The translations under genes and the position numbers were made by a program. Shown here piece after piece: positions 3,574-53,341 of a DNA stretch of 64,000 bases. Location of the stretch: assembly GCF_000023985.1 (NCBI RefSeq), contig NC_013156.1, forward strand, positions 1,290,363 through 1,354,362, read 5' to 3'. The notes under the pieces are model-generated. The model was not told where the DNA came from. It did not search any database and saw nothing but the letters and a program-made list of their open reading frames with translations. The stretch's first letter is position 1. Each line of letters begins with the position of its first letter. This DNA comes from Methanocaldococcus fervens AG86 (GTDB lineage: Archaea > AGJL01 > Methanococci > Methanococcales > Methanocaldococcaceae).

Positions 3574-5673
3574 ATGAGCTTAAAATATATTTTTTATCCA
3601 AAATCAGTGGCAGTTATAGGAGCTTCAAATAAGGAGGGAAAAGTTGGATATGCAATAATAAAAAACTTAATGGACTTCAATGGAAAAATCTATCCCATAA
3701 ATCCAAAATATGATAAGGTTTTAGGATTAAAATGTTACAAATCAGTTTTAGATGTTGAGGATAATATAGATTTGGCAGTTATAGTTGTTCCAAATGTTGC
3801 AGTTCCAAAGGTATTGGAAGAGTGTGGAGAAAAGGGAGTTAAAGGGGCTGTAATCATAACAGCTGGGTTCTCAGAAGTTGGAAATTATGAGTTAGAGGAA
3901 AAGATTAAAGAGATAGCAAAAAAATACAACATAAGAGTTATAGGACCTAACTGCTTAGGTATAATGAACACACATATAAACTTAAATGCCACATTTGCAA
4001 AGGTATTTCCTCCAAAAGGAGGGGTTTCAATAATCTCACAAAGTGGGGCTGTTTTAAATGCCATATTAGATATAGCTCCTTTATTAAACATTGGCTTTTC
4101 TAAGGTTGTTAGCATTGGAAATAAGGCAGATATTCAGGAAAGCGATTTATTAGAGTATTTTTTAAATGATGAAGACACTAAAATAGTTGTTTTATACATA
4201 GAGGGGTTGAAGGACAAGAGATTCTTAAAAGTGGCTAAAAAACTATCTAAGAAAAAGCCAATAATTGCATTAAAATCTGGAAGAACTGAAGTTGGAAAGA
4301 AAGCGGCAAAATCTCATACTGGCTCATTAGCTGGGGAAGATGTTATCTATGAAGCTGCATTTAAAGAAGCTGGAATAGTTAGGGCTTATACTTTTGAAGA
4401 GTTAGTTGATTTAATCCATCTTTTTTCAACTCAGCCAACGATGAACTCAAATGAAATTGGAATTATTACAAATGCGGGAGGGTTTGGAGTCTTAGCTGCA
4501 GATAGCTGTGTCGATTATAATATGAAGCTCCCTAATTTTGAAGAATCAACTGTGGAGAAGCTTAAAAACATCCTCCCAAAAACTGCAAATATATCAAATC
4601 CATTGGATATTATAGGGGATGCTACACCAGAAAGATATAAAAAGGTTATAGAGGTTTTGGCTGAAGATAGCGTTTTAAAAGGACTTTTAGTTATATTAAC
4701 TCCACAGGAGATGACAAAACCGTTAGAAGTGGCTAAATCCATCATAGAGGTTAGAAATTCTCATAAGGAGTTTAAAAATAAGCCATTAATTACTTCATTT
4801 GTTGGAGGAGTCTCAGTTAAAGGGGCTAAGAGTTTTTTAAGAAAGCATGGAATTCCTTCATATATAACGCCAGAGAATGGAGTTAAGGCATTATCCCATC
4901 TTTATAAATACAGCCTAATGAAAGTTAAAGAGGACTATGACGAATATTTAGAAAAAGTTAAAGAGGAGTTTTTAAAGATAACTGAGAAGAATAAAGAGAT
5001 TATTAAAGAGTTGTTATCAAATCCGAATGAATATAAAGCTAAAAAACTACTTGCCATTTATGGATTTCCAGTTCCTGAAGGGTATTTAGCTAAGAATGAA
5101 GATGAAGCTTTAAATTATGCTAAAAAATTAGGAAAATGTGTAATGAAAATTGTATCTCCTCAAATAATCCATAAGACAGAGGCGGGAGGGGTTGCAATAA
5201 ATCCAGAGAATCCTAAAGAGGCGTTTAAAATATTAATTGAAAACGCCAAAAAATACGCTGAAAAAATTGGTATTGATGATTTAATTATAGAGGGGGTTTT
5301 AGTTGAGGAGTTCATTGAGAGAGATAAGATGGAGATTATCATTGGAGCTAAGAGGGATGAGATTTTTGGCTCTGTAGTTATGGTTGGGTTGGGAGGGGTC
5401 TTTGTTGAAGTTTTAAAAGACGTTTCCTTTGGAATTTCACCAATAACGAGAGAGTTTGCCCACGAGATGTTAAAAGAATTAAAATCGTATAAGGTTTTGG
5501 AAGGTGTTAGAGGTAGAGCTAAGAGAGATATTGAGTTTATTGTTGATTGCTTAATAAAAATTGGTGTGTTTATGGATATTCATAAAGAAATTAAAGAAAT
5601 GGATCTAAATCCAGTATTTGTCTTTAATGATAAAGAAGGAGGATGTATTGGAGACGCGAGAATTATAAAATAA
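3574..5673 (+). CDS. acd: Acetyl-CoA synthetase (ADP-forming), fused alpha-beta
   Basis: A 699-aa enzyme that converts acyl-CoA, ADP and phosphate to the acid, ATP and CoA, giving substrate-level ATP. The order is: CoA-binding Rossmann domain (PKSVAVIGASNKEGKVGY near residue 10), CoA-ligase domain (VIGPNCLGIMN; ISQSGAV; the phosphohistidine loop KSHTGSLAGED near residue 250), a linker, then an ATP-grasp domain starting near residue 480 (YGFPVPEGYLAKNEDEA; KIVSPQIIHKTEAGGV; DLNPVFV). Alpha and beta parts are fused as usual in methanogens. The GTG at 3562 is less likely than the ATG at 3574, which has GGGGGAG at proper spacing. It stands alone in the plus direction. Confidence 0.88.
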   Translation: MSLKYIFYPKSVAVIGASNKEGKVGYAIIKNLMDFNGKIYPINPKYDKVLGLKCYKSVLDVEDNIDLAVIVVPNVAVPKVLEECGEKGVKGAVIITAGFSEVGNYELEEKIKEIAKKYNIRVIGPNCLGIMNTHINLNATFAKVFPPKGGVSIISQSGAVLNAILDIAPLLNIGFSKVVSIGNKADIQESDLLEYFLNDEDTKIVVLYIEGLKDKRFLKVAKKLSKKKPIIALKSGRTEVGKKAAKSHTGSLAGEDVIYEAAFKEAGIVRAYTFEELVDLIHLFSTQPTMNSNEIGIITNAGGFGVLAADSCVDYNMKLPNFEESTVEKLKNILPKTANISNPLDIIGDATPERYKKVIEVLAEDSVLKGLLVILTPQEMTKPLEVAKSIIEVRNSHKEFKNKPLITSFVGGVSVKGAKSFLRKHGIPSYITPENGVKALSHLYKYSLMKVKEDYDEYLEKVKEEFLKITEKNKEIIKELLSNPNEYKAKKLLAIYGFPVPEGYLAKNEDEALNYAKKLGKCVMKIVSPQIIHKTEAGGVAINPENPKEAFKILIENAKKYAEKIGIDDLIIEGVLVEEFIERDKMEIIIGAKRDEIFGSVVMVGLGGVFVEVLKDVSFGISPITREFAHEMLKELKSYKVLEGVRGRAKRDIEFIVDCLIKIGVFMDIHKEIKEMDLNPVFVFNDKEGGCIGDARIIK

Positions 5674-5696
5674 AAAATAAAAAATTAATAAAAAAA

Positions 5697-5728
5697 GCTA
5701 ACCGGTCCCAAACGGGTTCCCGGTTAAC
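5697..5728 (-). promoter_or_regulatory. Archaeal SECIS element
   Basis: On the minus strand this reads as a hairpin: a lower stem UUAACCGG/CCGGUUAG, an internal loop with GAA on the 5' side and a single A on the 3' side, an upper stem CCC/GGG and a GUUU apical loop. The GAA/A internal loop under a short three-pair GC stem is the hallmark of archaeal SECIS elements, which sit in the 3' UTR and direct UGA decoding as selenocysteine. It lies directly after the HesB-like gene with an in-frame UGA; the stop codon UAA (5724-5726) is part of the 5' strand of the lower stem. Confidence 0.88.
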
Positions 5729-6011
5729 ACTCACCACTACCTTTTATCTTTAGATACTTTCCAAATATTGACTTTCTTAATGAGATATTGACCTCATCAA
5801 GCCATTGATCTGCTATAGGGTCGATGTAGATTTTAAATTCATTGTCATAGATTAATTTATCATTTTCACTTGGTTGAGCTATTGCAACTCCAAACTTAGG
5901 TCCTCCTCACCCAAATCCATCGAAGTGTATAACTATCTTATCTTCATTAGCTTTCTTTAATTTTTCTAAGATGAATTCTTTAGCCTCATCAGATATGATG
6001 ACTTTCTTCAT
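5724..6011 (-). CDS. HesB/IscA-like selenoprotein (in-frame UGA = Sec35)
   Basis: A 95-aa HesB-like protein invisible to ordinary gene finding because codon 35 is TGA (5907-5909). Reading through gives HFDGFG-U-GGPKFGVA, where selenocysteine replaces the cysteine of the HesB glycine-rich motif, and the frame continues cleanly to TAA at 5724. The ATG at 6011 follows AAGGTGATAC. Family proteins are linked to iron-sulfur cluster handling; a HesB-like selenoprotein is known from M. jannaschii. Only one further Cys is present, at the very C-terminus (GSGEC), so the metal site must differ from classical IscA. An archaeal SECIS overlaps the stop codon. A truncated 34-aa product without selenocysteine is the alternative, but conserved coding beyond the TGA argues against it. 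Confidence 0.88.
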
Positions 6012-6225
6012 CGTATCACCTTCTACATTTATTATTGGGGATGTCCTATATATAATTTGTGGTTATGACAATATTTAACACAACCACAATAAACAATGAA
6101 CTACAAAAGAAATAAAAAAGGATAAAAATAATATAAAATAATATAATTAATTTTTATAATAGAATAATTAGAGAACATCAAAAGCTGATGTTTATTAAAA
6201 TTATTATAATTTTGGAGGGAAAGTT
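6012..6225. other. Divergent promoter region between selenoprotein gene and psmA
   Basis: About 210 very A+T-rich bases between two genes pointing away from each other. For the minus-strand selenoprotein gene, TATATATA-like sequence at about 6049-6056 is a TATA candidate. For psmA, TTTTTATAAT at 6152-6161 is at a suitable distance from the start. No ORF or stable hairpin was seen. Confidence 0.4.
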
Positions 6226-45557: not shown

Positions 45558-45882
45558 GGTGTGCATGGCTAGGCCGGGGGGTTGGGCGTCCCCTGTAACC
45601 CGAAATCGCCCTTATGCGGGGGCCGAAAACTTGGGGGCGGTATGTTGTTTGGCCCCCTCTTCCCAGATTCCTCGATGATGCCTCGTCCCGTGGGGCTCGG
45701 CGGTGGGGGAGCATCTCCTGTAGGGGAGATGTAACCCCCTTTGCCTGCCGAACCCCGCCAGGCCCGGAAGGGAGCAACGGTAGGCAGGACGTCGGCGCTC
45801 ACGGGGGAAGCGGGGCTGAGAAGGAATCTGGGGGCGAGAGGGGGCTAGACAACATACCCACCCCAAGGAAGCCATGCACACC
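45558..45882 (+). ncRNA. Signal recognition particle RNA (7S RNA)
   Basis: A GC-rich RNA of about 325 bases, the scaffold of the SRP for SRP19 and SRP54. The ends pair perfectly (GGTGTGCATGGCT with AGCCATGCACACC), forming helix 1 found in archaeal SRP RNAs. The S domain is seen at about 45744-45790: the GGAA tetraloop in CCCGGAAGGG, the asymmetric loop GGAGCAACGG and the closing GCCTGCCG/GGTAGGC-type stem of helix 8. A T-run (TATTTTTTGAG) follows. Open frames on the minus strand here are artefacts of the high GC. A TATA box at 45523-45534 drives it. Confidence 0.95.
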
Positions 45883-53042: not shown

Positions 53043-53341
53043 GTTAAAATCAGACCGTCTCGGTATGGAAATTTGTGGGATTTAATAACATTGGCAAAAA
53101 AAATTATGTTAAAATCAGACCGTCTCGGTATGGAAATTCTGTATCTGGTTCTATTCTGGCTTTTATAGGTATGTTAGTTAAAATCAGACCGTCTCGGTAT
53201 GGAAATCTTAGATGGCGGCCTTTCTTTCAGCTCAGCTATTGCCGTTAAAATCAGACCGTCTCGGTATGGAAATTACGTTGAATTATCATAGACTTCAATT
53301 GTTATAACGTGGTTAAAATCAGACCGTCTCGGTATGGAAAT
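53043..53341 (+). CRISPR. CRISPR array: five 30-nt repeats, four spacers
   Basis: Five identical repeats of 30 bases, beginning GTTAAAATCAGACCGTCT and ending CGGTATGGAAAT, at 53043, 53108, 53177, 53244 and 53312. Spacers are 35, 39, 37 and 38 bases. The GAAAT end is the 8-nt crRNA tag typical of archaeal I-A/I-B repeats, and the repeat resembles the M. jannaschii repeat with a few changes. Five identical copies with no degenerate last repeat suggest a short or recently shortened array. No spacer matches anything else that I can see in the window. Confidence 0.98.

Follow-up and report, generated by a model that had tools for sequence, protein, structure and literature searches.

The closest described relatives of the gene analysed here are the HesB-like selenoproteins of M. 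jannaschii and M. maripaludis, for which NCBIfam holds the family model TIGR01911. A first-pass annotation of this DNA, made from the letters alone, had noted that such a protein is known in M. jannaschii, and it is indeed present in selenoprotein lists from 2005 and 2010 (PMC1242214, PMC2933860). In M. maripaludis, mutagenesis and 75Se labelling are reported to have identified the protein, and a mutant disrupted in the hesB-like gene showed normal nitrogen fixation (PMC11097638). For the HesB protein of M. fervens, neither selenium labelling nor a selenium-containing peptide was found in the openly readable literature. The gene described here lies in a stretch of 64,000 nucleotides, referred to as the window (G000:C1:1290363-1354362, from a genome whose contigs sum to 1,507,251 bases), and is orthologous to these genes, having the same UGA codon, the IscA fold and a 3' SECIS; it shows no difference in kind from the other TIGR01911 selenoproteins.

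The same fold is found in the A-type Fe–S proteins IscA and SufA, at an identity to the window protein of about 20%. IscA ends in a CxC tail, whereas the window protein ends in one Cys only and carries Sec at residue 35.

The recoding element is of the methanogenic (euryarchaeal) KTL type, with which it shares the GAA/A loop, the 3-bp C–G upper stem, the GC-clamped lower stem and the location at the 3' end; it differs in that its lower stem takes in the end of the final Cys codon together with the stop. A selenoprotein stop codon within its own SECIS-like element has likewise been described for Lokiarchaeia, where the stop often overlaps the SECIS core, as cited in PMC11227280. In those archaea the UGA stop coincides with the AUGA core of a eukaryote-like SECIS, whereas in the window the stop is a UAA and the part of the euryarchaeal SECIS in which it falls is the variable lower stem. 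The overlap had been put forward in the first-pass annotation as its own observation; it is real in the window, but as a phenomenon it is not new, going by what PMC11227280 cites. A search of openly accessible papers, without their supplementary tables, found none that describes a stop–SECIS overlap in hesB.

Our reading, to which we give a probability of about 0.9, is that this is an ordinary Methanocaldococcus hesB-like selenoprotein gene, in which UGA is read as Sec by means of a canonical 3' SECIS and the overlap reflects a compact 3' UTR and is dispensable.

The hesB-like gene and its UGA codon

Re-reading of the window sequence upheld the positions first given for the minus-strand frame, for its TGA at codon 35 and for the hairpin (Table 1). 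With TGA taken as Sec, the frame 6011-5724 reads MKKVIISDEAKEFILEKLKKANEDKIVIHFDGFG-U-GGPKFGVAIAQPSENDKLIYDNEFKIYIDPIADQWLDEVNISLRKSIFGKYLKIKGSGEC*. Its identification as a HesB-like selenoprotein is borne out by a TIGR01911 score of 128.3 bits (E 1.3e-37; cut-off 66.35), and all 23 aligned homologues match the same model; the match to PF01521 (Pfam Fe-S_biosyn, HesB/IscA superfamily) is marginal, at 26.8 bits against a gathering cut-off of 26.3. The gene had been called hidden, which is true of an open reading frame list made with table 11 only, as NCBI has a dedicated family model. A PDB sequence search with the window protein found no relative, so a structure model was used for the comparison. 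The AlphaFold2 model (pLDDT 93.6) gave IscA and SufA as its best matches in a structure search (PDB 1x0g, 1r94, 2d2a), and the predicted IscA fold is confirmed by this model search.

Table 1. Features of the hesB-like locus in the window, and the three SECIS-less hesB genes of related genomes
Feature	Position	Strand	Details and basis
hesB-like selenoprotein gene	5724..6011	minus	95 codons + UAA, UGA = codon 35; family matches, homologues, AlphaFold2 IscA fold
In-frame UGA (Sec, U35), codon 35	5907..5909	minus	context GFG-U-GGP; kept in 33/33 homologues
Start and stop of hesB-like gene	ATG 6011-6009, TAA 5726-5724	minus	
Putative ribosome-binding site	6015..6020	minus	GGTGAT 5' of ATG
Likely promoter of a single-gene transcript	6045..6060	minus	TATA-like AAATTATATATA
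Archaeal SECIS	5697..5728	minus	sequence, fold, covariation, model R1
SECIS lower stem	5728-5720/5705-5697	minus	9 bp, GUUAACCGG/CCGGUUAGC
UAA stop within SECIS lower stem	5724..5726	minus	pairs 3-5
SECIS internal loop	GAA 5719-5717 opposite A5706	minus	
SECIS upper stem	5716-5714/5709-5707	minus	CCC/GGG
SECIS apical loop	5713-5710	minus	GUUU
Likely transcription terminator	5661..5696	minus	T-rich stretch directly after SECIS
SECIS-less hesB L011	G013:C1:1606570-1606854		
SECIS-less hesB L012	G007:C41:31695-31979		
SECIS-less hesB L005	G006:C1:1532287-1532571		

The window gene carries the motif GF(G/A)-U-xGP with an in-frame UGA, and the proposal that this codon stands where HesB proteins have a Cys is supported. 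An in-frame TGA is present in all 33 homologues from a set of 36 Methanococcales genomes; among these 33 there is no Cys version, and none that ends before the TGA, a case that had been named in advance as one that would count against the gene. Cys directly precedes the stop in 32 of the 33, with Tyr in its place in L010. When wider genome contigs were scanned, the single extra locus was L006, from a MAG, which was already in the set.

The UGA is followed immediately by GGAGG (window 5902-5909), which is Shine–Dalgarno-like and codes for Gly-Gly, and which is absent where Gly is encoded by different codons, as in L026.

Under table 11 the UGA is read as a stop, and on this basis the product would be only a peptide of 34 residues, with the downstream frame a relic. 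The differences that have accumulated beyond the UGA run against this, being 19 synonymous and 7 nonsynonymous for L002-L004 and 25 against 11 for L002-L007; nonsynonymous sites are about four times more numerous, and dN/dS is low on both sides of the UGA. Such purifying selection on the downstream frame already refutes the reading as a true stop, to which the full-length TIGR01911 match, the confident IscA fold and the covarying SECIS are also opposed, and we give it practically no credence.

The genome has a tRNA-Sec (71.6 bits) and further selenoprotein genes, as is expected of one that decodes Sec. Other canonical SECIS elements follow a VhuD-like gene, a VhuU-like gene and selD, these being names that we assume from sequence and cluster position. 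The complete genome G014 has a UGA hesB with a SECIS, but a tRNA-Sec over the Rfam cut-off is not among the matches listed for it, which is possibly a miss. Elsewhere in the window, the Rfam scan gave an archaeal SRP RNA at 45562-45878 and five CRISPR-DR13 repeats at 53043-53341.

As a selenoprotein gene, hesB would be transcribed as a short, probably single-gene, mRNA with the UGA at codon 35; a motif like the TATA-like sequence also lies upstream of hesB in L004, L005, L011 and L012. The canonical SECIS about 180 nt downstream would direct delivery of Sec-tRNA, and the UGA would be read as Sec. The predicted product is an IscA-fold protein of 95 residues with U35 and a C-terminal Cys95, probably with a role in Fe–S or metal chemistry, and we infer that Sec is inserted at U35 in M. 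fervens AG86.

The SECIS and the stop codon within its stem

The hairpin had been described as an archaeal SECIS with a GAA/A internal loop and a CCC/GGG upper stem, and this description stands. The 91-nt region folds with −28.2 kcal/mol (z = −4.4), and none of 200 shuffles folds equally well. Across 25 distinct SECIS sequences, two-sided changes are seen at 11 of 13 pairs, 91.7% of the cells in the alignment pair, and covariation scores 0.70, compared with 0.23 for shuffles; the signal is gone when the partners are slid, which together with the covariation means that the structure is real and under selection. The features that define a methanogenic KTL SECIS are all found, namely three strong upper-stem pairs (CCC/GGG, kept in 25/25), GAA opposite A with both invariant adenines, and a conserved, covarying lower stem. 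Our covariance model R1 finds the window element in its own genome with 38.4 bits, the window sequence being among those from which R1 was built. An Rfam scan of the window gave no archaeal SECIS match at the gathering score, and the loose pattern GAACCN{5,14}GGA proved too frequent to be useful.

A SECIS is present at 30 of the 33 hesB loci, and its stem starts at the latest 17 nt past the stop's first base. The hairpin is therefore kept in most relatives, but it is absent from three Methanocaldococcus genomes, so that its conservation in close relatives, on which the first-pass annotation had staked its claim, is good without being complete, and the link between gene and SECIS is not absolute. 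The hesB SECIS of L021 (G017; L021:1786-1821) has AAA/A in place of GAA/A, a variant that is active elsewhere (PMC11881835).

Overlap between stop and stem was scored by contiguous stem pairs in the 30 SECIS-bearing homologues, that of L018, which has one stem mismatch, being read by hand. The stop lies wholly within the stem in 16, comprising all 11 SECIS-bearing Methanocaldococcus homologues, the window gene included, together with L019, L020, L024, L028 and L029. It lies partly within the stem in two (L021 and L030) and outside it in 12, and the UGA is kept in every one of these 14; where the stop is outside, the stem begins 3-17 nt after its first base (11 measured of 12). For groups g2 and g3, which we take to be Methanococcus and Methanothermococcus, the stop is mostly just before the stem, whereas in the window gene it is inside. 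Within the window's own genome, the stop of the VhuD-like gene is 24 nt before its SECIS stem and that of selD about 51 nt. The stop of the VhuU-like gene overlaps its own SECIS stem by one base (L141, around base 4977).

It had been suggested that, with the UAA inside the lower stem, the terminating ribosome must melt the SECIS and so could couple termination to Sec decoding; such coupling might act, for instance, as a timer or as feedback on recoding. The overlap on which this rests is real and is present in 11/11 SECIS-bearing Methanocaldococcus homologues and the five others; its conservation throughout those 11 is compatible with a lineage-specific role. Against coupling, the overlap is not kept wherever the UGA gene is kept, since in 14 of the 30 homologues all or part of the stop falls outside the stem. 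Where the stop is outside, the stem is only 3-17 nt from its first base, so that the terminating ribosome would disturb nearly every one of these SECIS elements, overlapping or not, and for any element within about 15 nt of the stop the overlap itself would add little. The UGA, moreover, is 175-206 nt upstream of the stem, beyond the reach of the same ribosome, and in M. maripaludis a SECIS relocated directly after the coding region caused no apparent impairment (PMC9622424). Coupling is possible in principle, but it is not supported here, and we consider it very improbable.

Judged from these comparisons, the overlap is common but dispensable, as in other genera the UGA persists although the stop is not in the stem. 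It looks like a result of tight packing in a very short 3' UTR: the UAA would lie in the stem because so little sequence follows the gene, the Cys–stop sequence UGYUAAC doubling as the 5' arm of the SECIS stem.

Relatives with a UGA but no canonical SECIS

The three Methanocaldococcus genomes with a UGA hesB and no canonical SECIS are G006 (L005), G013 (L011) and G007 (L012). L005 has lost the apical half of its SECIS, and the KTL with it, by deletion; what remains is the lower stem, CTAACTGGAAAGTTAGC, which folds into 7 bp capped by a GGAA loop. In L011 and L012 all sequence after the stop has been replaced by a different, convergent gene of flavoprotein/ferredoxin type; the proteasome gene upstream of hesB is kept in G013. 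The gene's strand was searched over 12-14 kb around the gene for NAA/A hairpins of any kind with five or more lower pairs. G013 and G006 have none and G007 has only one weak match, an AAA/A 5.9 kb away, whereas in the control G003 the gene's own SECIS was found at once. Canonical GAA/A hairpins are absent from both strands of the same 12-14 kb in all three genomes, no SECIS came out of a full covariance scan of the 3.3-kb loci either, and neither a bacterial-type SECIS after the UGA nor a 5' SECIS was found in these loci. Translation from an internal start after the UGA was also considered and rejected, there being no in-frame ATG, GTG or TTG in L005, L011 or L012.

By every other sign in their sequences, these genomes appear still to decode Sec. 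Each has a tRNA-Sec (70-72 bits), a canonical SECIS at the VhuD-like gene and sites with the selD-type SECIS sequence, and G006 and G013 also have canonical elements at the VhuU-like gene and at one further gene, the third, in that cluster.

Over the 60 codons that follow the UGA, L011 and L012 differ at seven places, all synonymous (dS 0.23, dN 0), and the part before the UGA has 6 synonymous and 3 nonsynonymous differences. Seven randomly placed changes would leave the amino acids untouched with a probability of about 1e-4 or less. Because the SECIS-less junction is common to L011 and L012, the loss most likely preceded their split. On the L005 branch there are 7 synonymous and 2 nonsynonymous changes after the UGA, which do not fix the date of its SECIS loss. 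The case for selection on the downstream frame after SECIS loss is strong, for one genome pair and one short gene, and is silent on the mechanism of decoding.

A possibility, which we think somewhat less likely than not, is that hesB in these genomes has begun to decay since the SECIS was lost, or that its UGA is weakly suppressed independently of any SECIS. The lack of a SECIS within 12-14 kb and the deletion in G006 would fit either version, and SECIS-independent reading of UGA is known from M. maripaludis, at <1% of the wild-type level (PMC9622424); the wholly synonymous divergence of L011 and L012 and the missing start codon after the UGA do not fit. Rather doubtful, in our estimate, is productive decoding of the hesB UGA, as Sec or as another residue, in G006 and, independently, in the lineage of G013 and G007, whether through recoding that needs no SECIS, through a cis element of unrecognised type or through a SECIS that acts in trans. 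M. voltae fdhA, which appears to have no SECIS, poses a similar puzzle (PMC11881835). No paper describing a SECIS-less hesB was found in the same search of openly accessible papers, without supplementary tables.

Meaning for archaeal Sec recoding

The window gene itself is a standard case of archaeal Sec recoding, in a selenoprotein that was already known. Compared across relatives, the hesB SECIS may overlap the stop, abut it or lie at a distance to which it has moved, and it has been lost on two occasions (once by 3' replacement and once by internal deletion), with the UGA frame still under selection. We know of no archaeal SECIS-binding factor, and natural selenoprotein genes without a SECIS in genomes that decode Sec would for this reason be a direct test of whether the element is always needed in cis. 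The SECIS-less hesB genes of the G013/G007 lineage and of G006 are the lead worth following: productive decoding there, if true, would be an exception to the rule that archaea insert Sec only with a KTL SECIS in cis.
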